This document shows, one piece after another, positions 7,602 to 54,035 of a stretch of 64,000 nucleotides of DNA. Position numbers and translations under genes: made by a program. Below the pieces are notes generated by a model, which worked only from the letters and a program-made list of their open reading frames with translations, did not search any database and had not been told where the DNA came from. Positions within the stretch are counted from its first letter, which is position 1, and every line of letters begins with the position of its first letter. Origin of the DNA: Bacteroides uniformis (GTDB taxonomy: Bacteria; Bacteroidota; Bacteroidia; Bacteroidales; Bacteroidaceae); contig NZ_CP102263.1 in NCBI RefSeq assembly GCF_025147485.1, positions 2,741,501 to 2,805,500 of the forward strand, given 5' to 3'.

Positions 7602-7689
7602 CGTCCGATATATGTTTCCTTTTCGTCCGACAGTTGTTGAATCATCGTCCGACAACTGTTGAATTATCGTCCGACAGCTGTCGGACGAA
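7602..7689. repeat. 22-bp-period palindromic repeat array A
   Basis: CGTCCGA begins at 7602, 7624, 7646 and 7668, exactly 22 bp apart. Units 2 and 3 are nearly identical over their whole length. The last unit closes with the perfect 20-bp palindrome CGTCCGACAGCTGTCGGACG at 7668-7687. It lies between the exchanger gene and aspD, in the upstream region of aspD. The rest of the 7505-7780 gap shows nothing I can name. Confidence 0.85.
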
Positions 7690-7780
7690 TAGCTATTAGT
7701 GAATGGGTATATAGTCGCTTGCATTTCCGGCAATAATTCTTTGAATGCTCCGGATTAGTAAGCATTGGTACAGAATCGTC

Positions 7781-9475
7781 TTATATTAGCAAAACGATGA
7801 CTACACCCCATATTATTAATAAGGTATTGCCCACGGCATAGGTCACGGTGTATCCCAGAGCAGGTGTCTCACTCTCAACGGCATCCTGCACCGCGCCTAA
7901 AGCGGCCGTAGTGGTACGTGCCCCCGCGCAGACGCCCAAAGCCAGTGCCGGATGGAACTTGAAAACATACCTTGCCAGCAGCAAGCCGATAATCAGCGGC
8001 AGGGTGGTGGCGGCTGCTCCCACCAGGAACAGGCTGATACCTACGTCGTGGAAGCCCTGCACGAAACTGGGACCTGCCGAAATGCCCACTACCGCGATGA
8101 ACATGTTCAGACCGACATTGTTCAACACCCATTGCGAAGGTTCGGGAATGCGCCCGAAGGTGGGGTGCTTACTGCGGAGCCAGCCGAAGAACAAGCCGGC
8201 AATCAATGCGCCGCCGCTTGTGCTCAAGCTGATGGGGATGCCGCCGATATGGACGGAAAGTGCTCCGAACAAACCTCCGACAAGGATACCCAGGCCTACG
8301 AATATCATGTCCGTCTGGTTGGTAGGGCGGTCTATATACCCCAGACGTTTGGCTGCTGCTTCCACTTCCTGCCTGGTACCTACCACTTCGATGACGTCGC
8401 CGGCATCTACTACCGTTTGTGCCAGCACGGGAATGGATATTCCGGCGCGCTTGATGCTCCGGATACTGACACCGTGCATGAACTTTTCCCTTCGGATAAC
8501 TGCAACCGTCTTGCCGGCAACCGTCTTGCGTGTGATTGTAACCGGTAACTTTTCGGCAGGAAAATCCAGGAGCTGGGCATCTTGTACTTCCGGCCCTATC
8601 CAGCTTTCTTCGCCTATGATGTATTCGCGGCGTCCGCTTAGCACTACTTCGTCTCCCGGCTCTATCTGTATGTTCATGCTGACTTCCACCACAACTCCGG
8701 ATTTGCGGAGGCGTTCCACAAATAGACGTTTGTCGTGCTGCCGGAAGTAGACTTCCAGGTCAATCACCCGCTTTCCATTCTTGAACCATTCGTTTTCGAC
8801 CCGGTAGGCACGGAAAGTGACGGGGCGTGCCGCCGGCATGAATCCCGGTTCGTCAGCCAGAGAGCTGCCCATCTTCGCCTCCAGTTCCTTGCAGGCGGCT
8901 TTCACCTTTTCCAGCCCGCCTAGCATCTTGGGACCAATGGATGATAGGACCCATGCCGAGCCTGCCGTACCGAAAATGTAGGTGACGGCGTAGGATACGG
9001 GAATGATGTTGACGTAACTTTGTCGTTGGGCCTCGTCCAGTCCCATATTGGCCATGGTGTCTTCTGCCACTCCGATGACGGCGGAGATGGTTTGCGAACC
9101 GGCCAGCAGTCCGGCAGCTTCACCGGCATTGTAGCCCATCATCAGGGCCAGCAGCCAGGTCACTAACAGTACGGATACACACATCAGTACGGCAAAGCCT
9201 ACTTGGGGTAATCCGTCCTTTTTCAGTCCGCGGAAGAACTGGGGACCCACTTTATAGCCCACGGCAAAAAGGAAAAGCAGAAAAAATACCGACTTTATCG
9301 GACCCGGTACGGCTATATTCAGTTGCCCTACCAGTACGCCTACAAGCAGTACACTGGTCACTGTGCCCAGCGTAAACTTACCGATACGCAGTTTCCCCAG
9401 CCAGAATCCCAGGAATATAGTGAGGAAAATGGCAAGTTCGGGGCGTTCCCTGAGCTGGTTGAAAATCCATTCCAT
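7781..9475 (-). CDS. aspT: Aspartate:alanine antiporter, AspT family
   Basis: 564 residues from the ATG at 9475; an in-frame ATG 66 bp upstream would add a polar, non-family extension. The architecture is that of the AAE/AspT exchangers: an N-terminal membrane half beginning [17 protein letters not shown], two cytoplasmic RCK_C/TrkA_C domains in the middle (about residues 190-370), and a C-terminal membrane half ending in hydrophobic VVIVLLI. AspT proteins exchange external aspartate for internal alanine electrogenically. The neighbouring decarboxylase makes this substrate assignment firmer than for most members, whose substrates are unknown. Other YidE/YbjL-type transporters share the fold. 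Confidence 0.88.
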
Positions 9476-9630
9476 AATCAAGTTGTTTAGGTTATATATT
9501 GGTTGTTCCGATGCTTTCTGGAGCGTCGTTTCGCTATACAACGGCTTTTAACGGGAAGTGTTTTGTACAAAAGGAGTTTTTTAGAACATTTATTCCGTAA
9601 AACCGAACTTTAAGAAAAAGTTTTCTTCCG

Positions 9631-9638
9631 TACCTTTG
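9631..9638 (+). promoter_or_regulatory. Bacteroides -7 box
   Basis: TACCTTTG matches TAnnTTTG, 26 bp before the ATG of the DUF5686 gene. No convincing -33 TTTG was found at the usual spacing. Confidence 0.5.
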
Positions 9639-9663
9639 CCATCCAAATTAGGTAAAACAAGGT

Positions 9664-12201
9664 ATGAAGTTGTTTTTTAGGGTATTTCTGCTTATCCAGC
9701 TGGTTACTCTTCCATTGAGAGCACAATATATGGTGCAAGGCGTTGTCACCGATTCGTTGACGAAGGAGCCGTTGCCTTATACGTCAGTTTATCTGAAAGG
9801 AACTACGGAGGGAGGGATGACGGACAATAACGGCCGTTTTTCCTTCAAGACCTATCGCCCGGAGGCCACGCTGGTCATTTCGGCCGTGGGATATAATGAA
9901 TATGTCCGGCTGATTCATCCTGCAAAGTCTTCTAAGTTCAATATTGCCCTTTCGCCAGCCACTTATGCACTGGATGAGGTGGTGGTGAAGCCGAAACGTG
10001 AACGGTATAAGAAAAAGGATAATCCCGCAGTGGAGTTTGTACGCAAGATGATAGAGCATCGGGATGACTACTCGCCCGACGAACGCGACTTCTGGAAACG
10101 TGACCGCTATGAAAAGATGACTTTTGCCATCAATAACTTCGACAGCTTGAAGCAACAGAAGTGGCTTTACCGTAAGTTCAAGTTTCTGACGGATTATGTC
10201 GATACCTCTGCCGTTACCGGCAGGCCGGTACTGGCCATCTCCAACCGTGAGTTACTTGCCACAGACTATTACCGCAAGTCTCCGCATAGCCGGAAACAGT
10301 GGGTCACCGCCCGCAGGCAGGCAGGAGTGGACGAGATGCTTTCCCAGCAGGGTATGGAGCAGGCTATCAGTGTCACCATGACCGATGTAGACCTTTATGA
10401 GAACAACATCACCTTGTTCACCAATAAGTTTGTCAGTCCGCTTTCCTCCCTTGGGCCGTCTTTCTACAAATATTATCTGATGGATACGCTTACCGTTGCC
10501 GGAAAGCCTTGTGTTGACTTGACATTTGTCCCTTTCAACTCCGAGTCGTTCGGTTTTACGGGACATTTATACGTCATGCTGGACAGTACCTATTTTGTAA
10601 AGCGTGCCGTCATGAACTTTCCTCAGAAAATAAATCTGAACTTTGTGGACTACATGAAGATTGAACAGAATTTTGACCGCGCGGAGGACGGTACGAGGCA
10701 GTTGCTCAATGAGAGTATCACTACGGAATTCAAGTTGGTGGACAATAGTGACGGTATTTATGCCAAGCGGGATGTGTATTACAGAAACTATCAGTATGAA
10801 CCGGATGACAAGGCTCTGCAGGCTTTCCGAAAACCGGAAAAGGTGATTGAAGAGACATCGGCTTCCGGCTATTCGGAAGCATATTGGGATGCCAACCGCC
10901 AGGTGGAAGTCAGCAAGAAAGAGACTTCGGTGGACAAGATGATGGCCCAGTTGCGCAGCTATCCCGTTTATTTCTGGACGGAGAAAGTGTTGAAGGTGCT
11001 GTTCACGGGGTATATTCCCGCTCCGAAGGAAAAAGAACCTTTGTTCTATATCGGTATGATGAATACCACTATCAGCGGAAATACACTGGAAGGGGTGCGC
11101 TTGCGTGCCGGCGGTATGACGACGGCATGGCTCAATCCGCATTTGTTCGGCAGGGGCTATATGGCATACGGTTTTCGCGACCATCGTGTAAAGGGACTCG
11201 CCGAACTGGAATATTCTTTTCATAGGAAGAAGGAATATGCCAATGAATTTCCTATACATTCGTTGAAGCTCCGTTACTTGTCAGACGTCAATCAATATGG
11301 ACAACACTATCTTTATACCAGTCAGGATAATGTTTTTCTTGCCTTGAAACGTCAGAAGGATGACCGTATCGGTTATCAGCGGAAGGCGGAACTGACCTAT
11401 ACCAATGAGTTCCATTCCGGCTTTTCCGTACAGATGACGACGCGTCTGCGTAAAGATGAATCATCCCATCTGATTCCTTTCGTCAAGCAGGACGACCATA
11501 ATACGTATGTAAAAAGTATTTCGACCAGTGAACTGGAATTGAAGCTGCGCTATGCTCCCAACGAGAAATTCTTCCAGACCCAATGGAACCGTTTCCCCGT
11601 TTCGCTGGATGCTCCGGTCTTTTCGCTTACACATACCATGGCTGCCAAAGGGGTACTGGGAGGAGACTATACCTATCACTATACGGAAGCGGGTTTTCAA
11701 AAGCGTTTCTGGTTCTCGGCATTCGGTTATACGGACGTTATCCTGAAGGCCGGGAAAGTATGGAACAAGGTTCCTTTCCCTTTGCTCGTCATTCCCAACG
11801 CGAACTTGTCCTATACCATACAGCCCGAGTCCTATTCACTGATGAATGCCATGGAATTCATGAACGATGAATACGCTTCCTGGGATGTGACCTATTACTT
11901 GAACGGCTGGCTCTTCAACCGTATTCCTTTGTTGAAAAAGTTGAAATGGCGTGAAGTGCTTTCCTGTCGCGGCTTGTATGGGAATTTGAGTGATAAGAAT
12001 AATCCGGCTTTTCAGCAGGATTTGTTCCGTTTTCCTGCCGGCAGCACTACAATGGGGCATACGCCATACGTAGAGGCAGGTGTAGGTGTTGAAAATATTT
12101 TCAAAGTATTGCGTGTCGATTATGTATGGCGTTTGACTTACCGAAATTTACCAAATATCGACAAATCCGGGCTCAGAATCAGTCTACACATGACATTTTA
12201 A
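9664..12201 (+). CDS. DUF5686 / carboxypeptidase-regulatory-like outer membrane protein
   Basis: 845 residues. A signal peptide ending near LRAQ is followed by a CarboxypepD_reg-like beta-sandwich (about 22-110: VQGVVTDSLTKEPLPYTSVYLKGT, FSFKTYRP, LDEVVVKPKRER) and then a long DUF5686 region rich in amphipathic beta strands, ending in an aromatic residue (ISLHMTF), as expected of an outer membrane barrel. The N-terminal sandwich is shared with SusC receptors, but there is no TonB plug. The family is widespread in Bacteroidetes and its function is not established. It is transcribed alone, divergently from aspT. Confidence 0.85.
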   Translation: MKLFFRVFLLIQLVTLPLRAQYMVQGVVTDSLTKEPLPYTSVYLKGTTEGGMTDNNGRFSFKTYRPEATLVISAVGYNEYVRLIHPAKSSKFNIALSPATYALDEVVVKPKRERYKKKDNPAVEFVRKMIEHRDDYSPDERDFWKRDRYEKMTFAINNFDSLKQQKWLYRKFKFLTDYVDTSAVTGRPVLAISNRELLATDYYRKSPHSRKQWVTARRQAGVDEMLSQQGMEQAISVTMTDVDLYENNITLFTNKFVSPLSSLGPSFYKYYLMDTLTVAGKPCVDLTFVPFNSESFGFTGHLYVMLDSTYFVKRAVMNFPQKINLNFVDYMKIEQNFDRAEDGTRQLLNESITTEFKLVDNSDGIYAKRDVYYRNYQYEPDDKALQAFRKPEKVIEETSASGYSEAYWDANRQVEVSKKETSVDKMMAQLRSYPVYFWTEKVLKVLFTGYIPAPKEKEPLFYIGMMNTTISGNTLEGVRLRAGGMTTAWLNPHLFGRGYMAYGFRDHRVKGLAELEYSFHRKKEYANEFPIHSLKLRYLSDVNQYGQHYLYTSQDNVFLALKRQKDDRIGYQRKAELTYTNEFHSGFSVQMTTRLRKDESSHLIPFVKQDDHNTYVKSISTSELELKLRYAPNEKFFQTQWNRFPVSLDAPVFSLTHTMAAKGVLGGDYTYHYTEAGFQKRFWFSAFGYTDVILKAGKVWNKVPFPLLVIPNANLSYTIQPESYSLMNAMEFMNDEYASWDVTYYLNGWLFNRIPLLKKLKWREVLSCRGLYGNLSDKNNPAFQQDLFRFPAGSTTMGHTPYVEAGVGVENIFKVLRVDYVWRLTYRNLPNIDKSGLRISLHMTF

Positions 12202-12266
12202 CTTAAATCTTACTAATAGGACATTAAATCGGATAAAATGACTAATCCCAATTGAGTAAAATACCC

Positions 12267-12274
12267 TAAATTTG
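12267..12274 (+). promoter_or_regulatory. Bacteroides -7 box upstream of the inositol-lipid cluster
   Basis: TAAATTTG matches TAnnTTTG and lies 28 bp before the ATG of the inositol-phosphate synthase gene. It is the only such box seen before the cluster. Confidence 0.5.
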
Positions 12275-12302
12275 AGCAATTTTTTAAACTCTAAATAATA
12301 CA

Positions 12303-13598: not shown

Positions 13599-13736
13599 AA
13601 AAACAGTGATAAGGTGATAAAAATAAGGTGGTAAGGTGATAGAGTGATAGCACTTTACCACTTTATCACTTTTATTACTTTATTGCATTTATCACTTTAC
13701 CGTTTTTATCGCATTTATCACCTCATTACTTTTTTG
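13599..13736. repeat. Low-complexity quasi-palindromic spacer
   Basis: The gap between the synthase and PgpA-like genes is built from variants of GTGATAAGGTGATA on its left side and their complements (TATCACTTTACCACTT) on its right, so the two halves can pair. The longest ORF through it would put these letters into an implausible N-terminal extension of the next protein, so it is read as non-coding. Confidence 0.6.
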
Positions 13737-14210
13737 ATGAAGAAACCCTCCCTCCTCCCAGTCATTATCGGTACGGGCTTTGGCTCGGGCTTTTCTCCTT
13801 TTGCACCCGGCACTGCGGGAGCTTTGCTGGCTACGCTTATCTGGTTCGGGTTGTCTTATCTGGTTTCAAGTGCCTGCCTTTTGTGGCTGACAGTAGCATT
13901 GATTTTGGTATTTACACTTGCCGGTATCTGGGCTGCTAACCGCCTGGAGGCATCTTGGGGCGAAGACCCTTCGCGCGTGGTGGTCGATGAAATGGTCGGT
14001 GTGTGGATTGCCTTGCTTGCGGCGCCCGCCGGACATGTATGGTATGCATTGGGAGCATTTGTCTTGTTCCGTTTGTTTGATATATTCAAGCCCTTGGGCA
14101 TTCGCCGTATGGAAAGTCTGCCGGGTGGAATCGGGGTAATGATGGACGATATTCTGTCCGGAGTCTACGGATTTATAATTTTGATTGTGGCAAGATGGAT
14201 AATCAGTTGA
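13737..14210 (+). CDS. Phosphatidylglycerophosphatase A-like phosphatase
   Basis: 157 residues, normal for PgpA (~155-170). Family signatures are IGTGFGSGFSPFAPGTAGAL near the N-terminus and DPSRVVVDEMVGVW, which carries the acidic catalytic residues, plus several membrane helices. In this cluster the likely substrate is phosphatidylinositol phosphate, dephosphorylated to phosphatidylinositol, rather than phosphatidylglycerol phosphate; this is inferred from context and recollection of the B. thetaiotaomicron pathway. The start at 13737 places the conserved motif at the family's normal distance and leaves the repetitive spacer untranslated. The 3' end overlaps the next gene by 16 bp. Confidence 0.88.
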   Translation: MKKPSLLPVIIGTGFGSGFSPFAPGTAGALLATLIWFGLSYLVSSACLLWLTVALILVFTLAGIWAANRLEASWGEDPSRVVVDEMVGVWIALLAAPAGHVWYALGAFVLFRLFDIFKPLGIRRMESLPGGIGVMMDDILSGVYGFIILIVARWIIS

Positions 14211-19365: not shown

Positions 19366-19641
19366 TTATTTCTTCACTGAGAGGGTGAACGTTTTTGCAG
19401 GCTTAAATGCCGGAATGTTATGTTCCGGAATGATTATTGTAGTGTTCTTGGAGATGTTGCGAGCAGTTTTCTGAGCTCTTTTCTTCACTACAAAACTACC
19501 AAACCCGCGGAGGTAAACATTTTCATCTTTGGATAAAGATGCCTTTACTGCGTCCATGAATGCTTCAACGGTTGTAAGTACGGTTGTCTTATCAATTCCG
19601 GTGTTCTTTGTAATTTCGTTTACAATATCAGCTTTAGTCAT
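19366..19641 (-). CDS. HU-family histone-like DNA-binding protein
   Basis: 91 residues, a full HU/IHF fold: MTKADIVNEI start, the GFGSFVVKKRAQKTARN beta-arm entry and the intercalating-proline region ending PAFKPAKTFTLSVKK. It bends and compacts DNA as a dimer. The -7 box TATATTTG lies on the minus strand (19693-19700), giving a leader of about 47 nt. It is divergent from mutY and precedes the microprotein and RNase G genes. Confidence 0.95.
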   Translation of the reverse strand: MTKADIVNEITKNTGIDKTTVLTTVEAFMDAVKASLSKDENVYLRGFGSFVVKKRAQKTARNISKNTTIIIPEHNIPAFKPAKTFTLSVKK

Positions 19642-23404: not shown

Positions 23405-24778
23405 TTACAGCCTTTCCAGTTGTACCGTGAAGTGTCTCATCAACGGAGCTTCCCAGGTGATGCGCACTCCGCGGGTAATACTTTCCCGTTTGTCATATAC
23501 ATTTTTCAAAGCGGCTGCCACCACATCCATGTGGTTGTTGGTATACACGCGGCGGGGGATGGCAAGCCGAAGCAAGTCCAGGCCGTTGAAGCGGTTTTCG
23601 CGGGTCACCGGGTCGCGGTCTGCCAGCAGATACCCGATTTCGCAGCCGCGTATGCCTGCTTCCAGATAGAGCTCAGCGGTCAGTGTTTGTGCCGGGAATT
23701 CTTCTTTGGGCACATGTGTCAGCACTTTGGGGGCATCCACAAATATGGCATGGCCGCCTGCGGGACGTTGGTAGGGTATCCCGTACTCATCCAGTTTCAT
23801 GGCTAGATAGCCCACCTGGTGAATGCGGGTTTCCAGATTGTCAAATTCAGTATTTTCATCCAGGCCGATGGCAAGGGCGTTCATGTCACGACCGTTCATG
23901 CCTCCGTAAGTAAGGTAGCCTTCGAACTGCACGCAGAAGCCTTTGGCACCTTCATACCAGTCTTTCCGGCGGGTGGCTATGAATCCGCCCATGTTGACAA
24001 TACCGTCTTTTTTGGCACTCATCGTCATACCGTCGGCAAGGTCAAACATCTCGCGGGTAATTTCCTTTATGCTCTTGTTGCGGTAACCTTCTTCTCTCAT
24101 TTTGATGAAGTAGGCATTTTCCGCAAAGCGTGCCGAGTCAAAGAGAACGGGCTTGCCGTACTTGTCGGCAATGGCGCGGACTTCGCGCAGGTTCTGCATG
24201 GAAACCGGCTGGCCGCCTGCAGTGTTGTTGGTTATGGTGACGATGACGAACGGTATCCGTTCGCTATGTTCCTGTAATGCTTTTTCCAGTTTTTTAGGGT
24301 CTACATTGCCTTTGAAGGGAATTTCCAGCTGTGTCTGTTTGGCTTCGTCTATGGTGCAGTCCAGAGCCAATGCCCGGCGTCCCTCGATATGTCCTTTGGT
24401 GGTGTCGAAATGGGAGTTTCCCGGCACAATGTCGCCCTCGTGCACCAAGTAGGAGAAGAGTACATTTTCGGCAGCGCGTCCCTGGTGGGTGGGGATAATG
24501 TATTCAAATCCGGTGAGGCGGGTGATGACTTCCTTCAGTTTGAAGAATGAGGTGGCTCCGGCATAGCTTTCGTCACCCAGCATCATGCCTGCCCATTGGC
24601 GGTCGCTCATGGCTCCGGTGCCCGAGTCGGTGATGAGGTCGATATAAACTTGTTCCGATTTGAGTTGGAATACGTTGTAGTGGGCCTCTTTCAGCCATTG
24701 TTCGCGTTCCTGGCGGGTACTTTTGCGGATAGGTTCCACCATTTTGATTTTCCATGCTTCGGCAAATGGTAATTCCAT
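23405..24778 (-). CDS. tnaA: Tryptophanase
   Basis: 457 residues, beta-eliminating lyase family (PLP fold type I). The N-terminal FAEAWKIKMVEPIR, the PTHQGRAAEN phosphate-binding stretch and the Schiff-base lysine region DGMTMSAKKDGIVNMGGFI are typical of TnaA. It splits tryptophan into indole, pyruvate and ammonia. No tnaC-like leader peptide with a Trp codon was found upstream. A near-consensus promoter (about 24855-24884, minus strand) seems to serve the gene independently of the riboswitch transcript behind it. Tyrosine phenol-lyase is the close alternative; the general sequence favours tryptophanase. Confidence 0.92.
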   Translation of the reverse strand: MELPFAEAWKIKMVEPIRKSTRQEREQWLKEAHYNVFQLKSEQVYIDLITDSGTGAMSDRQWAGMMLGDESYAGATSFFKLKEVITRLTGFEYIIPTHQGRAAENVLFSYLVHEGDIVPGNSHFDTTKGHIEGRRALALDCTIDEAKQTQLEIPFKGNVDPKKLEKALQEHSERIPFVIVTITNNTAGGQPVSMQNLREVRAIADKYGKPVLFDSARFAENAYFIKMREEGYRNKSIKEITREMFDLADGMTMSAKKDGIVNMGGFIATRRKDWYEGAKGFCVQFEGYLTYGGMNGRDMNALAIGLDENTEFDNLETRIHQVGYLAMKLDEYGIPYQRPAGGHAIFVDAPKVLTHVPKEEFPAQTLTAELYLEAGIRGCEIGYLLADRDPVTRENRFNGLDLLRLAIPRRVYTNNHMDVVAAALKNVYDKRESITRGVRITWEAPLMRHFTVQLERL

Positions 24779-25030: not shown

Positions 25031-25064
25031 CAACGCTTTTTCCTCGAAAGCAATGATAAAGTAT

Positions 25065-25240
25065 GCATGGCAGGTCTTCTGACTTGTTTCTGTTGCAGGC
25101 GCCTTCCCGGAAGAATATTCCAGTGGCATAGAGTAATTGTCTGCAACGTTGCACGAAACTTACAGCAGCGGGACTGTCCAGGATTTACACCTGATTCCCT
25201 TTTAATCGCTTTCCCAGAAGAGGGGGAGCGAACCAATGCA
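25065..25240 (-). ncRNA. Cobalamin (B12) riboswitch
   Basis: On the minus strand the conserved core reads in order: AAAAGGGAATCAGGTGTAAA, TCCTGGACAGTCCCGCTGCT, GTAAG, TGCCACTGG, GGGAAGGCGCCTGCAACAG and finally AAGTCAGAAGACCTGCC, the class-defining B12 box and 3' closing strand. It should bind adenosyl- or methylcobalamin and switch off the downstream gene. The expected target (BtuB-type uptake or a cobalamin pathway gene) is missing; only a short gene remnant and a hairpin follow before tnaA. Confidence 0.92.
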
Positions 25241-25243
25241 TGA

Positions 25244-25273
25244 CAAAGATACGGATTCTTTTTGAGAAAACAA
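25244..25273 (-). promoter_or_regulatory. Promoter of the riboswitch transcript
   Basis: Minus strand: TTG at 25271-25273, 19 bp spacing, then TATCTTTG (25244-25251), an exact TAnnTTTG. The predicted start near 25239 coincides with the 5' end of the riboswitch fold. Confidence 0.75.
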
Positions 25274-25324
25274 TTCTATGAGTGATAAATTTTCTTCCCC
25301 TCTCTCTTTCTTTTTGCCGACAAA

Positions 25325-25429
25325 TTGGCAAGGTTTTGCCACCCTCTTGGCAAGACTTTGTCACCGCGTTGGCAAAACTTTGCCATAGGCATGGCAAAAG
25401 TTTGCCAAAAGCATGGCAATAGGTTGGCA
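25325..25429. repeat. 22-bp-period palindromic repeat array B
   Basis: Units start at 25325, 25347, 25369, 25391 and 25413 (all exactly 22 bp apart), and a final half-unit starts 11 bp later at 25424. The core is a dyad of the form TTGGCAAAACTTTGCCA with 4-5 bp between units, so direct and inverted half-sites alternate every 11 bp, one helical turn. It lies between the histidine kinase 3' end and the riboswitch promoter. The rest of 25252-25579 holds no gene I can support. Confidence 0.88.
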
Positions 25430-25579
25430 AAATTACTCTCTGATTGATAGTGACTTAAGGCGATTTAAGCAATCCGTCATGTCGGTAAGGTGAAAAGATA
25501 CCAATACAAGCCACACTTGCCACAAGAACCTTCTCCGGAGGTATGCAAAGCATTTTGTTTGGTGTGGTAAAACGGGCTG

Positions 25580-27373
25580 TTATCTCTCTTTTGCCAGTGT
25601 GAATACAAACTCCAGTCCTCCGCCTTGGTTGTTTTTGGCAGAGATGGTGCCTCCGTGAATAAGGACTGCATTCTTCACTATGGCGAGCCCCAAGCCGGTG
25701 CCGCCCAACTTGCGCGAGCGTCCTTTGTCTACACGGTAGAAGCGTTCGAACAAACGGTTCAGATGTTCGGGAGAAACGCCGATGCCGGTATCGGCAAAAC
25801 TGAAATAGTAGTAATTCTCGTCTTCGCGGAAACAACTGATGTTGATGTGTATGTTGGTGCCGGCATAAGCGATGGCGTTGTCCATGAGATTGCGGAAGAT
25901 GGAGTAGAGTAGAGAGTAGTTGCCCCGCAACTGTATCTTCGGTTTTAGGGAATTGACAACGGTGATTTGCTTCTGTTCCAGTTCCAGGGACACTTCGTTG
26001 ACGATGTTTGAAACCAGCATGCTGATGTCCACCTTTTCCATATCAATCATGTTGGCGGCTTCGTCCATGCGGGTCAGTACGGATATGTCGCGCAGCAGGC
26101 GGCTCAGGCGGTTGCTTTGCGCGTAGCAGCGTTCCAGGAAGACCTGCATCTTTTCGGGTGCAATGTTTTCGTTGTTCACGATGGTTTCCAGATAACCTTG
26201 TATGCTGCTTACGGGGGTTTTCAGCTCGTGGGCGATGTTCTGGGTCAACTGCCGTTTCAGCCGTACTTGCTCTTCTTCCTGGGTGATGTCGTTGATGGAA
26301 ATTTCAAAGCTGAGGTCTTGGAAGATGATGCACTCCACGATGAAGGTGCGTCCGTTCTTGTTGATGTGTACGGACATCCTTCGTTCTTCGTTGTAGGAGG
26401 GGCGCTTCTGCGCCTTGTTGATGAAATCCGTTATCTTCTGGAATTCGCAGATGGAGAATATCTCTTCGGTAGCCTGCAGGTTGGAGTCTGAAATCAGATT
26501 GCCGTATTGGGTGAACAGATTGTTTACCAATATCTCCTTTTTGTCTCTGTTGAATACGCCCAGTCCTTCGCGGGAGGTTTGCAAATGGGTGATAAGCTTT
26601 TCGCGCTCAATGTAAAGCGCCTCTTTGGTTTCGCGCAGGCGCTTGTATATCTGTATGATATGCTGCGAAATCTCTCCAAGCTCATTGTGCGGAAAGGCGG
26701 CTTGTATGTCCATGTCTATAGGTTCGTTCTTGTCGGCTCTTTTGGCAAACTCGCGCAGGTGGTTGATGGCGCTGCCCAGTTTGGAGGTGAATTTGTAGAA
26801 GACGGATATCAGCAGCAGTGATACAATGACCGTGAACCAGATGTAGTGTGGGTCGGCAGCCAGATTGTTCATCAGGTTGACGTTGTAGGGGAGGGCTGAG
26901 CGGATGATGCAGCCTTCGTAGGCGGTGGCAGAATAGAAATAGGTCTTGCCGGTGGTTTCGGAGATGCGCCGTAGGTCGTAGCCCTTGCCGTCTTTCAGCG
27001 CTTTCTGCACTTCGGGGCGTTTGATGTGGTTGTCCAGTTCATGGCTGTCGTTCTGGGAGCTGTCGAACAATACGTTGCCATGAAGGTCTACCACAGTGAC
27101 GCGCAATTCCTTGTTCACATGCTTGGAGATGTAGCTGTCCAGCATGGAAGTCCATAGGCTGTCGGGGAGATAACGAAGTTCCTGGTGTAGTCTGTCATTA
27201 TAGTCTTGCAACTGCGTGTCCAGTAGCTCCACTTTATATTCCTTTTCCCGCTGATACTGGTAGGCGATGAAGCATGCGGCGAATATGAGGAACAGTGAAA
27301 TGACCGAAAGGAAAAGCTTCCGGCTGAAGGACAGAAAGTGTCTGTCGTTATTCGGCTTCGAAACAATATCCAT
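25580..27373 (-). CDS. Sensor histidine kinase (PhoR-like)
   Basis: 597 residues: N-terminal membrane helix (about 20-42), a ~140-residue periplasmic sensor region, second membrane helix (about 178-195), a linker with PAS-like domain, then HisKA (NIAHELKTPVSSIQGYLE, classical H box) and HATPase (LMDNAIAY, FADTGIGVSPEHLNRLFERFYRVDKGRSRKLGGTGLGLAI). Membrane-bound partner of the response regulator whose gene overlaps its 5' end by 26 bp. The PhoR label reflects domain order and the type of regulator; the stimulus is unknown. Confidence 0.93.
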   Translation of the reverse strand: MDIVSKPNNDRHFLSFSRKLFLSVISLFLIFAACFIAYQYQREKEYKVELLDTQLQDYNDRLHQELRYLPDSLWTSMLDSYISKHVNKELRVTVVDLHGNVLFDSSQNDSHELDNHIKRPEVQKALKDGKGYDLRRISETTGKTYFYSATAYEGCIIRSALPYNVNLMNNLAADPHYIWFTVIVSLLLISVFYKFTSKLGSAINHLREFAKRADKNEPIDMDIQAAFPHNELGEISQHIIQIYKRLRETKEALYIEREKLITHLQTSREGLGVFNRDKKEILVNNLFTQYGNLISDSNLQATEEIFSICEFQKITDFINKAQKRPSYNEERRMSVHINKNGRTFIVECIIFQDLSFEISINDITQEEEQVRLKRQLTQNIAHELKTPVSSIQGYLETIVNNENIAPEKMQVFLERCYAQSNRLSRLLRDISVLTRMDEAANMIDMEKVDISMLVSNIVNEVSLELEQKQITVVNSLKPKIQLRGNYSLLYSIFRNLMDNAIAYAGTNIHINISCFREDENYYYFSFADTGIGVSPEHLNRLFERFYRVDKGRSRKLGGTGLGLAIVKNAVLIHGGTISAKNNQGGGLEFVFTLAKER

Positions 27374-42430: not shown

Positions 42431-42473
42431 GGTGATGTGCGTTAGAAGAGCATCTGAGAGGGGGGCTATTCAG

Positions 42474-42539
42474 TATACGACTGAATAGGGTTAAGTATAC
42501 GACTGAATGGCATTCACTATACGACTGAATGCCATTCAG
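42474..42539. repeat. 22-bp-period palindromic repeat array C
   Basis: TATACGACTGAAT begins at 42474, 42496 and 42518, exactly 22 bp apart. ATTCAGT / ACTGAAT dyads span the unit borders, and ACTGAATG-C-CATTCAGT closes the array. It lies between the two S46 genes, upstream of the DPP11-like one. The rest of the 42431-42569 gap shows nothing else. Confidence 0.85.
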
Positions 42540-42569
42540 TATGGGAGGTAATCTCTCAGAGGCTTTAAT

Positions 42570-46023: not shown

Positions 46024-46119
46024 GTATATTTTCTCTATTTTTATGATTTATAATTGTGCAAAAATACGTAAACCGAATGAAAAATCCTTTCTTTCTATTC
46101 GGTTTATAAGGAATATTAA

Positions 46120-46127: not shown

Positions 46128-46156
46128 CTGGGTGTAATTCAAAAATCGTTTCTTGC

Positions 46157-46906: not shown

Positions 46907-46920
46907 ACAGGAATGAGTTG

Positions 46921-46985
46921 ATAATGACAAACGGAAATGCCTGAATATCCTATCAAGATATTCAGGCATTCCCGTTTGTCATTAT
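46921..46985. terminator. Long bidirectional hairpin terminator
   Basis: About 28 nearly perfect base pairs between 46921-46949 and 46957-46985, with a 7-nt loop. It separates the convergent lipoprotein and plsC genes. Confidence 0.9.
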
Positions 46986-46989
46986 GTCT

Positions 46990-47748: not shown

Positions 47749-47797
47749 AGGTGTCGGATTTTTTATTGCTACAAAGATATACCTTTTTCTTATTTCG

Positions 47798-48973: not shown

Positions 48974-49587
48974 ATATCTTTCAATTCTTCAATGTTCTTT
49001 TTAATATTGTCCAGATGTTTGTAAATCACTTTTTTGTAGAGAATATAGATAATTAGCGCGTCAAATACTACGAAAAGGGTAATCAGTAGGGCTTGTACGC
49101 TGGCTGGTGCCAGATGATATTCCATCACCCAATAGTTGAGGATATTGAAAAGGATAATCCAAATGGAGATGCCCATCACTTCATATCTGGTCCATTGGCG
49201 GAAGGTGGTCATACGGCGACTGACTTCGGCAACCCCCATTTCATCAATACGCGTGTCCTTGTTCCAGCGGTATGTTTTCCAGTCCCACCACATGCCTATG
49301 AGGATGCTTATAGCGATGAATCCCAGTAAAGCGACAATCTTGCCTTGCAGCTGCTCATTGAAGCCGAAGGTGGGCAGCAACAGCCATATAAGCAGAAGGG
49401 CTGCCAGACCTACCGCTCCCATTCCGATAGAGAAACGCTGTATGACTACGAGTCGTCCCAGACTTTTGCGGGTATTGGCCTTGTAGCCGGCAATCAGTTC
49501 GGTAATCTGCTGTTCGTCAGCAATCGGTTCTTTCTGCAACTGTTCATTCAGTGCGTTCCATGATTTCTTCAGTTCATCCAGTTCCAT
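48961..49587 (-). CDS. Four-helix membrane protein, putative anti-sigma factor
   Basis: 208 residues. A short cytoplasmic helical N-terminus (MELDELKKSWNALNEQLQKE), then four membrane helices (about 46-70, 80-100, 135-160, 165-185) and a charged C-terminal helix. No family assigned with confidence. It is encoded 4 bp after the ECF sigma factor gene, the normal place of an anti-sigma factor, and its cytoplasmic N-terminal helices could bind sigma. It does not show the HxxxCxxC zinc motif. Confidence 0.65.
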   Translation of the reverse strand: MELDELKKSWNALNEQLQKEPIADEQQITELIAGYKANTRKSLGRLVVIQRFSIGMGAVGLAALLLIWLLLPTFGFNEQLQGKIVALLGFIAISILIGMWWDWKTYRWNKDTRIDEMGVAEVSRRMTTFRQWTRYEVMGISIWIILFNILNYWVMEYHLAPASVQALLITLFVVFDALIIYILYKKVIYKHLDNIKKNIEELKDICTE

Positions 49588-49591
49588 ATAT

Positions 49592-50077
49592 TTATTCCTC
49601 CTTATTCATTTTTTTCAATTTGTCCTTGATGCGGCTGAGTTTGGTGGCAACGTTTGTCAAGGTCAGCCCGGTGATTTCGGCAATTTCTTCGTAGCTTTTC
49701 TCTTCCAGATAGAGCAGTATGATGGACTTTTCCAATTGTCCCAGTCGGTTTATCATCCGGTAGAGCTGCCGTAGCATGGCTTGTGTCTCGTCGGTTTCTT
49801 CAGTCCGGTCGGCTTCCTGGGTGAGGGTGACGATTTCGGGGATGTTCTTTTCTTTGCGGATAAAGCTGATGCACGTGTTCAGTGCGATGCGGTAAATCCA
49901 TGTGGAAATCTTACACTCCCGCCGGAACTTGGGAAATGCTTTCCATAAGTTGAGCACCACTTCCTGATACAGGTCGTTGAGGGTAGCATTGGGCGTGGTG
50001 TACAGATAGCACACCTTATATATCACGCGCTCATACTCCCGTACCACGGATACAAACTCTTGTTCTGCATTTTCCAT
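49592..50077 (-). CDS. ECF-type RNA polymerase sigma factor
   Basis: 161 residues: sigma region 2 (NDLYQEVVLNLWKAFPKFRRECKISTWIYRIALN) and region 4 (LGQLEKSIILLYLEEKSYEEIAEITGLTLTNVATKLSRIKDKL). Usual ECF length. It directs transcription of a stress or envelope regulon, probably including its own operon. It is the first gene of sigma - membrane protein - phosphoesterase. Its upstream region holds a large inverted repeat. Confidence 0.93.
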   Translation of the reverse strand: MENAEQEFVSVVREYERVIYKVCYLYTTPNATLNDLYQEVVLNLWKAFPKFRRECKISTWIYRIALNTCISFIRKEKNIPEIVTLTQEADRTEETDETQAMLRQLYRMINRLGQLEKSIILLYLEEKSYEEIAEITGLTLTNVATKLSRIKDKLKKMNKEE

Positions 50078-50156
50078 CTTTTAGCTTCTTTCGAATTGCT
50101 TTTGCACTGTTAGTCGCATTGTGTGGCGATAAATCACAGTTCAAAAAGGATTATTT

Positions 50157-50284
50157 TAATGTGTTAATGTGCCTATATGCTAATGTGCCTATATGCTAAT
50201 GTGCCAATGACCTGCGGCATGGTAGCACAATATACATATAGCGCAGCCAATTGGCACATTAGCATATAGGCACATTAGCACATT
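50157..50284. repeat. Large inverted repeat with 16-bp tandem units
   Basis: TAATGTGCCTATATGC is repeated in tandem at 50165 and 50181, with a partial third copy at 50197. The complementary arm (CCAATTGGCACATTAGCATA ...) fills 50248-50284. The arms pair over 30-plus bases around a ~40-nt centre. It occupies the gap between the MetH-activation gene and the sigma gene. Confidence 0.8.
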
Positions 50285-50286
50285 AT

Positions 50287-51201
50287 TCATATTGTAGTGG
50301 CTAAAAACTTCCGCATATCCCCTATTGGCATTCCCCGGCGGCGGGCGTAGTCGTCCAGCTGGTCTTCTCCAATCTTGCCCACTGAAAAGTATCGGGATGC
50401 GGGATGTGCCAGCATCATGCCGCAGACGGAGGAGTGAGGGTGCATGGCTCCATGTTCAGTCAGCGTGATGCCTATCTGCTTCATGCCGAGCAGTTCGTCC
50501 AGCAGGAAATTCACGGATTGGTCGGGTAGGGAGGGGTATCCCACAGCGGGGCGGATGCCTTGGTATTTCTCGACCAGCAGATCCGGAATGGACAAGGATT
50601 CGTCGGGGGCATACCCCCAAGCCTCCTTGCGGACATATTCGTGCATCTTTTCTGTGGCGGCTTCGGCAAGGCGGTCGTTCAGAGTCTGTACAAGGAGATG
50701 TTTGTAAGGGTCGCTTTTATAAGTCTCTTCGGCCTCTTCACTGATGGTGGAGGCGAAAAGTCCTACGATGTCGGGCGTGCCTGAAGAGAGGGGACGTACA
50801 AAATCGCTCAGACAGAGAAATGGACCGCCATCGGGTTGGGGTGTCTGCTGGCGGAGCAGTGGGAAGGTTGTTCCTTCTATCAAGAGGTTATCTCCGTCTG
50901 CATTTGCCTGGCAAAGCCTGAAGATGCAATGGATGGAGATTGTTTCGTCCAGTCGGTCGAGCATTCTATTGGCCTCCTTGAAGAGCTGCATGGCTTCGGA
51001 AGCCTTGGTGCGTTCCTCTTCGGGAAAGGTCGTCAGCCAAAGTGCACGGCAAGAATCGCAGCCATGGATGTTTGCGATAGCTGCAAAGCGAGGCTGGAAG
51101 CCCCAGGCATGGAAGAAATAAATCCAGTTGATGTAAGGGGTTACTTCATGAATCCGATACGAAAGCAATTCATGCCCCAGTGCCAATATTGTCCTTTTCA
51201 T
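50287..51201 (-). CDS. Stand-alone MetH reactivation (AdoMet-binding) domain protein
   Basis: 304 residues. The C-terminal two thirds match the activation domain of cobalamin-dependent methionine synthase: RPAVGYPSLPDQS, then LTEHGAMHPHSSVCGMML and YFSVGKIGEDQLDDYARRRGM. In full-length MetH this domain binds AdoMet and remethylates inactivated cob(II)alamin. Here it is a separate protein with no methyltransferase or B12-binding domain, so it presumably works in trans with a MetH lacking the domain, encoded elsewhere. 33 bp downstream of pyrC. Confidence 0.85.
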   Translation of the reverse strand: MKRTILALGHELLSYRIHEVTPYINWIYFFHAWGFQPRFAAIANIHGCDSCRALWLTTFPEEERTKASEAMQLFKEANRMLDRLDETISIHCIFRLCQANADGDNLLIEGTTFPLLRQQTPQPDGGPFLCLSDFVRPLSSGTPDIVGLFASTISEEAEETYKSDPYKHLLVQTLNDRLAEAATEKMHEYVRKEAWGYAPDESLSIPDLLVEKYQGIRPAVGYPSLPDQSVNFLLDELLGMKQIGITLTEHGAMHPHSSVCGMMLAHPASRYFSVGKIGEDQLDDYARRRGMPIGDMRKFLATTI

Positions 51202-51234
51202 CCCATTTCATCCCTAATCCTTAATCCCTAGCCT

Positions 51235-52581
51235 TCACTCTCCAAATCTCAGTTCCTCGCCACGATAAGCATCGTCCACCATGCCGTCGCTATAAACGGG
51301 ATGTCCGTTGGCAAAAGTCCTTTCCACTTTCCAGTTGAAGGTATGTCCTTCCAATGGGCTCCAGCCGCATTTGCTCAAAACTTTGTCGGCTGTCACTTCC
51401 CACGGGGTATCGGGGCGTACCAGCACAAGGTCTGCCCGGTAACCTTCACGGATATAGCCGCGCTCGTTGATGCGGTAAATTTGTGCGGGAGCATGGCACA
51501 TTTTTTCAACGATGGTCTCGAGTGTGAATATTCCCTCATCTACCAGTTGCAGCATGCTGACAAGCGAAAACTGTATCATCGGCATGCCGGACATGGCCTT
51601 CAAGGCACCTCCTTCTTTTTCGGAGAGCAGATGGGGCGCATGGTCGGTGGCTATAACGTCTATCAGGCCGGAGTTGACGGCTGCACGCAGGGCATCGCGG
51701 TCGGCTTGCTTCTTAATGGCAGGATTGCACTTGATACGTGTGCCCAACGTGCGATAGTCACTGAGCGTGAAGAGGAGATGGGCAACGCATGCTTCGGCGG
51801 TGATATGCTTCTCGGAAAGTGAATAGTCATTGAACAGTTGCAGTTCCTTGGCTGTGGACACATGCAGAATATGCAGCCGTGCACCGGCAATCCTTGCCAG
51901 CCGTACTGCCAGCTCAGAAGATGCACAGCATGCTGCCGAGGAGCGGATGTAGGGATGCTTGCCTATGGGAATATCATTCTCTCCGGCAAACATTTCCTTA
52001 TACTTGGCAATATTGTTCTTGATGGTTTCCTGGTCTTCGCAGTGGGCGGCAATCAGCATGTCTGTACCGTTGAAGATGTTCAGCAGGCTGTTCATCTTGT
52101 CTACCAGCATGTTTCCGGTACTGGAGCCCATGAATAGCTTGATACCGCAGACGCGGTGCTTGTCCAGCTTGCCGAATTCGCTGTAATTGTCGTTTGTTGC
52201 GCCGAAGTAGCAGGAATGGTTTACGATACACTTCTCGTTCAGCAAATCAAGTTTGGCGTTCAAGGCATCCAGCGTAGTGGTCACCGGATTTGTATTGGGC
52301 ATATCCATGATGGAGGTCACACCACCTGCGGCAGCCGCACGGCTTTCGGTGAGGATGTCCGCTTTGTGGGTCAGCCCGGGATCGCGAAAATGTACATGGT
52401 CGTCGATGATGCCAGGCAACAGATAGCATCCGGTGGCATCTATGGTCTCGTCACAAGGGGCGGAGAGCGGTTTCCAGTTGGTCAGTACCTCTGCAATGCG
52501 CCCGTCTTCTATCACTACGGAACCTTTCACGGATTGTCCTTCGTTGACAATCGTAGCGTTATGTATCAATGTTCTTTTCAT
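51235..52581 (-). CDS. pyrC: Dihydroorotase
   Basis: 448 residues, class I amidohydrolase. Metal motif DHVHFRDPGLTHKAD, Lys in CGIKLFMGSSTGNM (candidate carboxylated or structural Lys), AAHCEDQE, ILHVSTAKE and ATDHAPHL. It closes N-carbamoyl-aspartate to dihydroorotate in pyrimidine synthesis. Allantoinase or hydantoinase are relatives, but DPGLTHK and the overall pattern are dihydroorotase-like. It is flanked by a GT2 gene upstream and the MetH-activation gene downstream. Confidence 0.92.
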   Translation of the reverse strand: MKRTLIHNATIVNEGQSVKGSVVIEDGRIAEVLTNWKPLSAPCDETIDATGCYLLPGIIDDHVHFRDPGLTHKADILTESRAAAAGGVTSIMDMPNTNPVTTTLDALNAKLDLLNEKCIVNHSCYFGATNDNYSEFGKLDKHRVCGIKLFMGSSTGNMLVDKMNSLLNIFNGTDMLIAAHCEDQETIKNNIAKYKEMFAGENDIPIGKHPYIRSSAACCASSELAVRLARIAGARLHILHVSTAKELQLFNDYSLSEKHITAEACVAHLLFTLSDYRTLGTRIKCNPAIKKQADRDALRAAVNSGLIDVIATDHAPHLLSEKEGGALKAMSGMPMIQFSLVSMLQLVDEGIFTLETIVEKMCHAPAQIYRINERGYIREGYRADLVLVRPDTPWEVTADKVLSKCGWSPLEGHTFNWKVERTFANGHPVYSDGMVDDAYRGEELRFGE

Positions 52582-52625
52582 ATCTTCCTAATATTTGTAG
52601 TAAACCCCTATCACTCTATCACCCA

Positions 52626-53381
52626 TCACTTCATCTCCTTATCTACGGTAGGATATTTATGGAACCAACTGTTCCATTTCAACCGAATCACTCCGAATAC
52701 GGCTTCACCAAAAATACTACTGTTCATTTTGGAGGTGCCCAGTTCGCGATTGATGAAGATGACAGGCACTTCCTTTACCTTGAAGCCACATTTGTAGGCG
52801 GTGAATTTCATTTCTATCTGGAAGGCGTATCCTTTGAAGCGGATACCGTCCAGATTGATGGTCTCCAATACCCGGCGGCGGTAACATACAAATCCGGCTG
52901 TAGTGTCGTGGATGGGCAGCCCGGTGATGAAGCGCACATACTTGGAGGCAAAATAAGACATCAGTACACGTCCCATGGGCCAGTTCACTACGTTCACACC
53001 ACTCACATAACGTGAACCGATGGCTACATCGGCACCCTCTTCGGAGCAGGCGCGGTAGAGTCGCGGCAGGTCTTGGGGATTGTGGCTGAAGTCGGCATCC
53101 ATTTCGAAGATATACTCATAACCTCGTTGCAATGCCCACTTAAAGCCGGCTATATAGGCTGTTCCCAATCCCAGCTTTCCTTTGCGCTCCACCATGAAGA
53201 GGCGTTCAGGAAACTCCTGCTGCAAGGTCTTTACAATGGCAGCCGTTCCGTCGGGCGAACCGTCTTCAATGACAAGGATGTGAAAACCATGTTTCAGAGC
53301 AAAAACGGCACGGATGATATTTTCTATATTCTCCCGTTCATTGTAGGTGGGGATGATGACAATGCTGTCTGATGTTTGCAT
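52626..53381 (-). CDS. Polyprenol-phosphate mannosyltransferase (GT2, DPM1-like)
   Basis: 251 residues. GT2 motifs IVIIPTYNERENIENII, LVIEDGSPDGTA, FEMDADFSHNP (DxD) and the DPM1-type IGSRYVSGVNVVNWP ... RFITGLPIHDTTAGFVCYRR. It moves a sugar from a nucleotide donor to a polyprenyl phosphate on the cytoplasmic side of the membrane, giving a lipid-linked donor for protein O-glycosylation or lipid modification. There are no membrane helices, as in soluble DPM1 proteins. Confidence 0.9.
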   Translation of the reverse strand: MQTSDSIVIIPTYNERENIENIIRAVFALKHGFHILVIEDGSPDGTAAIVKTLQQEFPERLFMVERKGKLGLGTAYIAGFKWALQRGYEYIFEMDADFSHNPQDLPRLYRACSEEGADVAIGSRYVSGVNVVNWPMGRVLMSYFASKYVRFITGLPIHDTTAGFVCYRRRVLETINLDGIRFKGYAFQIEMKFTAYKCGFKVKEVPVIFINRELGTSKMNSSIFGEAVFGVIRLKWNSWFHKYPTVDKEMK

Positions 53382-54035
53382 ACTTATAGGTAATGGGGGT
53401 TATAACTGGGAACAAATGTAATACATTTCTTTTTTATCTGGCAGCATTTTCACACAAATCTTGATTTTGCAAAGTTCTGGCACCACGACTCTTTCATTTA
53501 TGTAGCTCCTTCTAACTCCTGACTATAAGGAATGCAGGTTAAATCAAAGAACCGTATGCTTGACTTTGAACTTTAGCCTCAATCTTTAGCTATTCCCGTT
53601 TCAATCATTAACAGAAAACATTCAAACTATTAAAGAAAAACTTTCGAAGTATAAAGGATAAAGTGGGTAGATATAGGGAGAAAAAAGTGCTCTTCAGTCT
53701 TGGTCTGTCTATCCCAAGCCTTGGGATAGACAGACCAAACCCTGGGATACATGTCCGCGGGCTGGGGATAAACTTTGTGTAACATAACTCCTGAATAGGG
53801 ATTGTGCAGGCTGTGTTATTCATAATTGGAGGAAAAGAAGTTTCATTGCCTTCCCCGATAAATAGGGCGATACAGAAAAAAGGTGAAGGATGTGCAGGCT
53901 GACAGCAGAAAGATTATTTCAGAGAACATAGTTGCCGACAGGTCAAAGCTAAAGATTATTTGTGTATTTTTGCACCGAATTTATTTCGGTAGGATACCTT
54001 ATGAGAGGTAATATCGGGGGAAAAAGCGCAAAGCA
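53382..54035. other. Divergent intergenic region before mfd
   Basis: 654 bp without a gene I can support. It contains repeat array D (listed separately) and a -7 box TATTTTTG at 53965-53972 that probably starts the mfd transcript with a ~60-nt leader. A small frame at 53608-53823 on the minus strand runs through the palindromic array and is not protein-like. Confidence 0.6.
53702..53770. repeat. 21-bp-period palindromic repeat array D
   Basis: A perfect 16-bp-arm hairpin occupies 53702-53717 and 53721-53736 (arm TTGGGATAGACAGACC). The GGGATA half-site then recurs at 53723, 53744 and 53765, exactly 21 bp apart. Confidence 0.82.

Follow-up and report, generated by a model that had tools for sequence, protein, structure and literature searches.

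Intergenic arrays of palindromic units at a 22-bp pitch in Bacteroides: candidate operators of HU-HIG paralogues

INTRODUCTION

HU binds DNA with little regard to sequence, and the partition proteins TubR and AspA bind centromere arrays. In P. gingivalis, which belongs to the same order as Bacteroides, an HU-type protein binds a palindromic region upstream of the operon co-transcribed with its own gene and shows some preference for that palindromic sequence (PMC3969353, in the part available). The HTCS/SusR regulators of Bacteroides are paralogous; their operators differ in sequence but are alike in spacing, the two boxes lying 21 bp apart on average (available part of PMC3878776). REP, BIME, and REPIN elements, including the GTAG and CGTC super-families, are short palindromic intergenic repeats that form families, and CGTC REPs were reported from Bacteroidetes without a transposase (PMC3733652, as far as its available text goes). 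ERIC, NEMIS, CIR, and other small mobile repeats are imperfect intergenic palindromes of about 100 to 150 bp present in several copies (PMC2229807, available portion).

We analyzed a stretch of 64,000 nucleotides from Bacteroides uniformis (NZ_CP102263.1, positions 2,741,501 to 2,805,500; the window), in which four gaps between genes carry rows of palindromic units. These arrays resemble the HTCS/SusR operators in combining differing sequences with one spacing, and REP- and ERIC-like repeats in being intergenic, palindromic, and dispersed. In the titles and abstracts of the open-access literature, no description of 22-bp four-unit arrays or of HU-HIG operators was found, and the available part of PMC5771137 contained nothing on such arrays.

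RESULTS

The four arrays are listed in Table 1. Array A had one strong half-site, TCGTCCGACAG, in three of its units, and its last unit was a perfect 22-bp palindrome, while the half-sites TTGGCAAA and TTTGCCAA alternated in array B. Tandem Repeats Finder assigned a period of 22 to arrays A, B, and C and gave an entry at 53600-53656 within the flank of array D. Array D itself was absent from its list; the pitch of 21 bp was read directly from the sequence and the unit coordinates. The initial annotation had described palindromic units at a 21- to 22-bp pitch in four gaps, with no consensus across loci and an 11-bp half-step in array B, and had excluded CRISPR. All four arrays were found in the sequence and had no sequence in common, the half-step was borne out by the half-units of array B, and the exclusion of CRISPR held, as there were no unique spacers of at least 25 bp and the linkers recurred between copies within a family. 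A search for known RNAs gave a cobalamin riboswitch beside array B as the only match at the gathering score.

Table 1. Positions of the arrays and of the associated flank in the window
Feature	Position	Strand	Description
Array A	7601..7688	.	Four 22-bp units; aminotransferase gene on one side, Asp-Al_Ex permease gene on the other
Array B	25314..25436	.	Eleven 11-bp half-units, equal to 5.5 units of 22 bp
Array C	42466..42548	.	Four 22-bp units (ATTCAGTATACGACTGAAT), the fourth decayed; gap flanked by two S46 peptidase genes
Array D	53698..53773	.	Pitch of 21 bp, four core dyads by eye (TATCCCAAGCCTTGGGATA), final unit short
Array D flank	53592..53697	.	A-tract repeats at about 22 bp; belongs to the copied element

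To compare the pitch with chance, we used a 464-kb sample of this genome, made up of the window and 20 stretches of 20 kb. With at least 30 matches out of 44, lag 22 was found 10 times, lag 21 twice, lag 23 three times, and every other lag from 12 to 40 between zero and three times; one dinucleotide shuffle of the sample gave none. At a looser 28/44, there were 14 real matches at lag 22 and four in total in the shuffle, one of them at lag 22. At 31/44, nine of 20 matches fell at lag 22, and three shuffles gave none. A scan for chains of at least three dyads at pitch 22, which among arrays A to D caught only B, detected 8 chains at 6 places and none at 22 in the shuffle. The initial annotation had proposed a scan for a 21- to 22-bp period combined with dyads against shuffled sequence; in samples of three Bacteroides genomes, the excess was at 22, a pitch that was prominent there and not in the shuffles. 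Eight genomes of other families (626 kb, non-random since only contig starts were sampled) gave six matches at pitch 21 to 23, one with a strong dyad, and their dyad scan (617 kb) gave three chains at 22 and two at 21, with one plausible array (G039, locus L204). By eye, the outgroup pitch matches among those listed look like 7-bp repeats.

The results also showed that each array was one member of its own dispersed family, with 7 places in this genome for A, 10 for B, 8 for C, and 7 for D, after one row of B (E 0.95) and one of C (E 0.76) had been dropped. The claim that no repeated element had spread was therefore refuted, since every array recurs at 6 to 9 other places in this genome. The families were common to several species. 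A pattern of two adjacent family-A units, searched in one genome per species, matched Bacteroidota records only, and 43 of 51 matches extended to exactly four units. Array C occupied the same gap in G022 and G031, i.e., in three species. Amino acid or peptide catabolism genes, noted initially as neighbors, do lie beside arrays A, B, and C; this did not hold for the families, whose other copies were beside unrelated genes, among them those for enolase, sigma-54, topoisomerase subunit A, pyruvate formate lyase, and carbamoyl-phosphate synthase. With such unrelated neighbors, and with 14 of 54 family-A gaps lying between convergent genes, we rejected the operator of one transcription factor's regulon as an explanation.

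Proteins annotated merely as "HU family DNA-binding protein" include a family reportedly named HU-HIG by Burroughs and others in 2017. Each of seven genomes searched had between 14 and 41 profile matches, canonical HU and fragments counted. Under a fixed rule, arrays were present upstream of 11 of 28 HU-HIG genes versus 9 of 296 controls in this genome (Fisher, 2.6e-8) and of 7 of 21 versus 6 of 227 in a second species, G026 (1.4e-5); by eye, the counts were 14/28 and 10/21. Arrays were also found upstream of 14 of 17 selected HU-HIG genes in G012, G021, and G031. In G032, 6 of 14 upstream regions passed the rule, and four were convincing. Two that passed, L376 and L384, do not look like arrays, and L382 and L386 carry direct repeats of 20 bp in which no clear dyads are seen. 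In 26 of 40 regions, a TAnnTTTG box preceded the array window by 0 to 60 bp, compared with a frequency of 0.149 at random positions. No array was found for the HU-HIG proteins of 150 to 169 amino acids (10 in this genome) or for six of about 141 amino acids in G026. The predicted structure comprised an HU-like part and a winged helix, for which the array-bearing members of 127 to 146 amino acids have no room.

Two of the families in the window include an array upstream of a candidate cognate HU-HIG gene of this genome: family A at G000:C1:3977210-3977593 (L309), which scored 131.6 bits against the HU-HIG profile (PF18291; cut-off, 26.2), and family D at G000:C1:3138143-3138526 (L321). Positions 53592 to 53778 of the window were 70.9% identical to the region upstream of L321 over 189 aligned columns. 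For family C, a weak 18-bp match was found upstream of HU-HIG locus L326 (E 0.026). Family B had no match among the HU-HIG loci of this genome and no HU-HIG gene within its own loci; in G032, none of 18 HU-HIG matches adjoined a B copy among the B copies listed, and no B units were seen by eye in 14 HU-HIG upstream regions. An HU-HIG gene was within reach at only 2 of 32 family loci (L005 and L046).

The arrays varied with species and paralogue. An HU-HIG gene paired with a family-A array was found again in G018, a MAG, B. congonensis, and B. finegoldii. The A variant CGTTCGAC occurred in G035 both at scattered copies and at the HU-HIG gene, and the variant CGTCTGAC was found in G021 and also in B. 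congonensis and B. finegoldii. Of 12 sampled G026 arrays, 8 matched HU-HIG upstream regions of G026 (one being the same place) and none matched those of this genome. Among 14 arrays of this genome sampled by the same criterion, some of them doubtful, 11, including B and C, matched none of its HU-HIG upstream regions. Between HU-HIG paralogues, the upstream arrays differed in sequence but kept their pitch and place.

DISCUSSION

We propose that each HU-HIG paralogue probably has such arrays as its cognate operators, which would serve autoregulation at its own gene and be present as copies at other places, with binding inferred. This would be one form of the initial suggestion that different DNA-binding proteins share one architecture, a suggestion supported by the many HU-HIG paralogues that each have a sequence-distinct upstream array. 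Each family would be the set of binding sites of one member of the expanded HU-HIG family in Bacteroides, proteins with an HU-type dimer domain that, in the class of about 200 residues, would be followed by a winged helix. The home array, upstream of the HU-HIG gene and mostly shortly after the TAnnTTTG promoter box, may be occupied by dimers in a row, two helical turns apart on the same face of the DNA, which would repress or tune their own gene. Copies of the promoter-operator stretch may then have reached other gaps between genes, and binding by the same protein there would shape DNA or transcription. Joint divergence of paralogues and arrays would give one geometry with many sequences. In the window, this reading bears directly on arrays A and D; for array C the case is weak, and array B is included only by analogy. 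That two of the four arrays match arrays upstream of HU-HIG genes suggests that each protein has its own chromosomal addresses. A further idea, which we regard as possible though rather doubtful, is that these form parallel private address systems, each paralogue recognizing its array at its own gene and at scattered places and bending or gathering these. A dozen or more sequence-specific nucleoid proteins would then write different layers of chromosome folding, and new layers would arise by duplication of a paralogue with its promoter array, followed by array copying to new gaps.

The arrays could instead be non-autonomous mobile palindromic repeats, MITE- or ERIC-like and moved by an unknown enzyme, with HU-HIG proximity reflecting preferred landing or hitch-hiking and not binding. 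We consider this unlikely. Array D did come with about 500 bp of inserted DNA, G035 has eleven copies of a 300- to 400-bp element with 86 to 100% identity over long stretches, and the neighbors of the copies are unrelated. The G035 copies have inverted arms, and their ends are not sharply defined. Against this reading, no target duplication was visible by eye in these copies; array C stayed at one place in three species; and the arrays of different paralogues vary in sequence yet keep the pitch and the position upstream of the gene. A search for the Y1 tyrosine transposase (PF01797) gave no match in this genome at E 0.001, the same profile being positive in 5 of 14 genomes, which also led us to reject REP/REPIN elements with a RAYT. 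Spread and binding are mutually compatible. A structured 5' leader RNA, in which the transcribed array forms hairpins that either cause attenuation of the HU-HIG gene or serve as an RNA target of the protein, seems very improbable. It would suit the promoter box found before many arrays, the long inverted repeats of some copies (33 bp, perfect, in L004), and the RNA role suggested in the related case of P. gingivalis (PMC3969353, available part), but some copies, array A among them, have no long hairpin, three of the four units of array A point in the same direction, the convergent family-A gaps do not fit, no known RNA family matches the arrays, and a constant pitch of two helical turns suits DNA better.

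Least probable, with only a slight chance of being right, is that the arrays were built locally by template switching at small palindromes, without a binding partner. Events resembling it do occur, although they are not the main process: at L234, the array with its small loop is inverted between its arms; at L237, exactly 66 bp was lost; two units at B. finegoldii L299 stand against four at B. congonensis L269, which has similar flanks; and the orientation of array C units changed between species. Against it stand the sharing of families between species, the predominance of four units among family-A matches, and the likeness of the units, which was 0.746 within arrays versus 0.766 between copies for A, 0.680 versus 0.681 for B, and 0.588 versus 0.606 for D. 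Only family C showed the opposite (0.656 versus 0.557), but for this family the lattice fit did not capture the array or its phase in L037, L039, L034, and L035. Because units of A, B, and D were no more alike within an array than between copies, whole arrays were copied in these families, and local unit expansion was rejected for them; the initial idea of local copying from any palindrome was thus not borne out as the main process.

If HU-HIG paralogues bind the arrays as proposed, an expanded HU-related family appears to have specific target sequences, identifiable for each paralogue in turn from the genome. Proteins with no name beyond HU family would gain testable targets, some of the unassigned repeats between genes of gut Bacteroides would be accounted for, and candidate orthogonal protein-operator pairs would be on offer.

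Compared with known systems, the arrays depart from REP, BIME, and REPIN elements, which have 8- to 9-bp stems and 4- to 5-bp loops, occur mostly as dimers and rarely in clusters, and are described in the available text of PMC3733652 with neither an HU gene nor a fixed lattice of four 22-bp units. A stem-loop with an unpaired GTAG or CGTC tag was rejected, the units being dyads in a 22-bp lattice, and array A is not a CGTC-tagged REP because its initial CGTC is part of the palindrome. ERIC, NEMIS, and CIR are not four tandem units, and the available part of PMC2229807 describes no copy that is followed by the gene of a cognate DNA-binding protein. HTCS/SusR operators consist of two direct boxes instead of four palindromic units, serve polysaccharide-use genes, and are bound by another protein family (PMC3878776, available part). 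The P. gingivalis protein, at about 10 kDa, is close to canonical HU, and its site is a single inverted repeat with eight mismatches; the available part of PMC3969353 describes neither a dispersed family nor units of 22 bp.

Foldseek matches of the HU-HIG model included structures of TubR and AspA. These serve plasmid partition, of which there is no sign here, and have no HU domain, but their centromere arrays resemble the arrays described here in that a row of sites adjoins the gene of a winged-helix protein.

Arrays in the window and their pitch against chance

The initial annotation had described four intergenic rows of palindromic units spaced 21 to 22 bp apart; all four (arrays A to D) were found in the window sequence, with slightly corrected extents. 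The autocorrelation scan that it had proposed was run on samples of three Bacteroides genomes: 464 kb of G000, the genome that contains the window, plus 400 kb from each of G021 and G026, which represent two further species. It gave a peak at lag 22 in each. Under a stricter threshold, there were 10 hits at lag 22 in G000, 4 in G021 and 8 in G026, and none in shuffled sequence (one shuffle each). Dyad chains at pitch 22 numbered 8, 5 and 14, at 6, 4 and 10 places, respectively, because one array can contain several chains; 3 were found in outgroups and none in shuffles. With one to three shuffles per scan, these chance levels are coarse. Outside the genus, one plausible four-unit 22-bp array was seen at L204:15853 in G039, a genome of a different family of the same order.

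Arrays and other features of the window (window positions, strand in parentheses)
Feature	Position	Neighbors and remarks
Array A	7601-7688	Aminotransferase gene 5870-7504 (-); Asp-Al_Ex permease gene 7781-9541 (-)
Array B	25314-25436	Cobalamin riboswitch; histidine kinase gene 25580-27373 (-)
Cobalamin riboswitch	25052-25253 (-)	Beside array B, directly ahead of beta-eliminating lyase (tryptophanase-type) gene 23405-24778 (-); DNA matched in many of 41 genomes searched
Array C	42466-42548	S46 peptidase genes on both sides
Array D	53698-53773	Divergent gap, glycosyltransferase gene/gene with TRCF/mfd domains
Short tandem repeats	13651-13733	Run of repeats resembling TTTATCACT
91-aa open frame	19366-19641 (-)	Probable canonical HU gene at a weak PF18291 match; 400 bp read upstream had no array
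16-bp tandem repeat	50165-50205	Perfect, 2.6 copies; outside the 22-bp class

Dispersed families and the unit lattice

When each array was used as a query against G000 (4.63 Mb, one contig), copies were located at 7 places for A, 10 for B, 8 for C and 7 for D, one row each for B and C (E above 0.7) being left out. Open frames called with a simple reading-frame script overlapped 8 of these 32 places; seven were 71 to 126 aa long, and the eighth, at L005, was the frame of an HU-HIG protein (HU-related, profile PF18291) with an upstream start used. A four-unit lattice was fitted to family A. In G000, 27 of the 28 units scored at least 12 of 22 and the remaining one scored 10 (99th percentile for random sites, 11), and the positions just outside scored 4 to 8 in all seven copies. 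Four copies each in G012 and G035 gave at least 13 inside and at most 9 outside. The fit imposed four positions, and the evidence is in the sharp ends: with high scores inside and low scores outside, family A arrays therefore consist of four units and end sharply. Array B exceeds four units, and the D copy L051 may contain five.

A pattern of two adjacent family A units was then run over one genome per species (84,980 species, contigs of at least 3 kb). It matched 51 stretches, every one in Bacteroidota records (Bacteroides, Parabacteroides, Phocaeicola, Tannerellaceae, Prevotella MAGs and some less precisely named). After lattice extension, 43 stretches had four units, 4 had two, 2 had three and 2 had five; among the short ones, L268 and L307 were truncated by the locus end, and L261 looks by eye like a chance resemblance in coding DNA. 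In Bacteroides rodentium JCM 16496 (L302), 700 bp around array A was identical to the window, which places the window in this species or a very close one. For 7400-7900 and L001, the phage-collection records MT836176.1 (99% over 501 bp) and MT837553.1 contain the array A region or a sister array; filed as "Bacteriophage sp.," they look like host DNA.

The same gaps in other species

Array C was present in the corresponding gap of G022 and G031, with the half-site and unit orientation altered in G031, and was absent from that of G064. The A gap held a four-unit array in B. rodentium and, with different letters, in a MAG (L297), different 22-bp arrays in G018 and G031, and none in G022. The B gap had a 21-bp array of another sequence in G022 and was just 37 bp long in G018 and G031. 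The D gap measured 600 bp in the window versus 58, 141 and 199 bp in G031, G022 and G064, where no array was seen by eye. Array positions are old, and the array sequence is changing. The A gap of G018 (L216:7512-8300) and G031 (L222) additionally contained another 22-bp array with several units, together with a large nested hairpin element, so such gaps can gather several repeat kinds.

Arrays upstream of HU-HIG genes

Among the neighbors of 66 family A loci, one gene was seen repeatedly, at four loci that came from different genomes. It encodes an HU-HIG protein with the N terminus MSAxYDLYETP, and the same gene type adjoins L005; one family D copy also adjoins an HU-HIG gene. PF18291 had 28 matches in G000, and arrays with a pitch of 21 to 23 bp were present within 400 bp upstream of 14 of them by eye, the hypothesis being known to the counter in all by-eye counts, and of 11 by a fixed rule. 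Control genes, called with a simple script, passed the rule in 9 of 296 cases; this rate is if anything overestimated, since the passes include the gaps of arrays A, C and D and HU-HIG genes were left among the controls. In G026, 7/21 HU-HIG regions passed versus 6/227 controls (10/21 by eye). The rule was defined after the G000 and G026 regions had been viewed but before those of G012, G021, G031 and G032. It was passed by 14 of 17 HU-HIG regions selected from the first three of these, two more having an array by eye and one having none; the 17 were picked from among the best of 96 matches, with frames mostly near 200 aa, a bias toward the array-bearing class. The upstream regions of 14 of the 18 matches in G032 were examined; 6 passed, and 4 were convincing. 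Two G032 genes of the class with 160- to 173-aa frames (L382 and L386) were preceded by 20-bp direct repeats, a different repeat type.

Presence of an array varied with protein size. In G000, arrays preceded 11/11 genes for proteins of 176 to 214 aa (9 by rule) and 3/3 for those of 135 to 145 aa (2 by rule), 0/10 for those of 150 to 169 aa and 0/4 short matches, which were fragments or had the size of canonical HU. The array-bearing members of G026 were one of 200 aa and nine of 127 to 146 aa; those without an array were six of one 141-aa sequence type and five short or partial matches, two of which were examined with the fixed rule only.

Sequence pairing of arrays and HU-HIG genes

Among 12 arrays sampled in G026, 8 matched HU-HIG upstream regions of G026 (one being the same place) and none matched those of G000. 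Of 14 sampled in G000, 3 matched its own regions, none matched those of G026, and one, array A, matched a G021 region (L369). Among the G000 HU-HIG loci, none paired with array B, and array C had one weak candidate partner. In the 400-kb sample of G026, the array upstream of L344 (TGTACA) had seven further matching stretches and that upstream of L348 (TGATGTACATCA type) had two. The A variants track the genome: CGTTCGAC occurred in G035 both in scattered copies and upstream of an HU-HIG gene, and CGTCTGAC occurred in G021 and also in B. congonensis and B. finegoldii. In G012, arrays with a CTATAG core adjoin A copies, and similar arrays lie upstream of the HU-HIG locus L362. Window positions 53592-53778, around array D, aligned with the promoter-array region of L321, an HU-HIG locus of G000, over 189 columns (70.9%). 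The alignment takes in the flank and suggests that HU-HIG promoter regions are the ancestors of the scattered copies.

Proposed working and protein model

We propose that the arrays are putative binding sites of HU-HIG proteins, whose dimers would sit at a 22-bp spacing, all on one DNA face. In family A of G000, one unit appeared by eye nearly fully symmetric, and the strong halves of the others pointed away from it, the pattern expected if binding were to begin at the symmetric unit and then extend outward. In 26 of 40 HU-HIG regions, the best-scoring array window was preceded by a TAnnTTTG box that ended 0 to 60 bp before it, versus a fraction of 0.149 for random positions; an array just after this box would be a good site for blocking transcription of the protein's own gene. 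For the scattered A copies, both neighbors were called in 54 of 66 loci, and the gaps were tandem in 26, divergent in 14 and convergent in 14. These orientations make a purely promoter-bound role unlikely and an architectural role attractive.

A 205-residue HU-HIG protein of B. congonensis was modeled from 33 sequences. The best model had a mean pLDDT of 86.1 and a pTM of 0.52, and the other four had mean pLDDTs of 81.4 to 59.2, so the domain folds are usable and the domain arrangement is not. An HU-type domain lies within the first 128 residues, and residues 142 to 201 fold into three helices plus a wing of two strands. Array-bearing members of 127 to 146 aa have no room for such a winged helix and would need a different mode. 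Pfam matches to C-terminal winged helices were weak, either exceeding the usual limit or falling short of the cut-off, and the array-bearing L309, L318 and L326 scored below the cut-off of the related NCBIfam model HU_rel. The top Foldseek match was 4fmr, a putative DNA-binding protein of Bacteroides vulgatus (E, 1e-4), followed, at E above 0.001, by IHF, HU, TubR, ArsR-type repressors and AspA.
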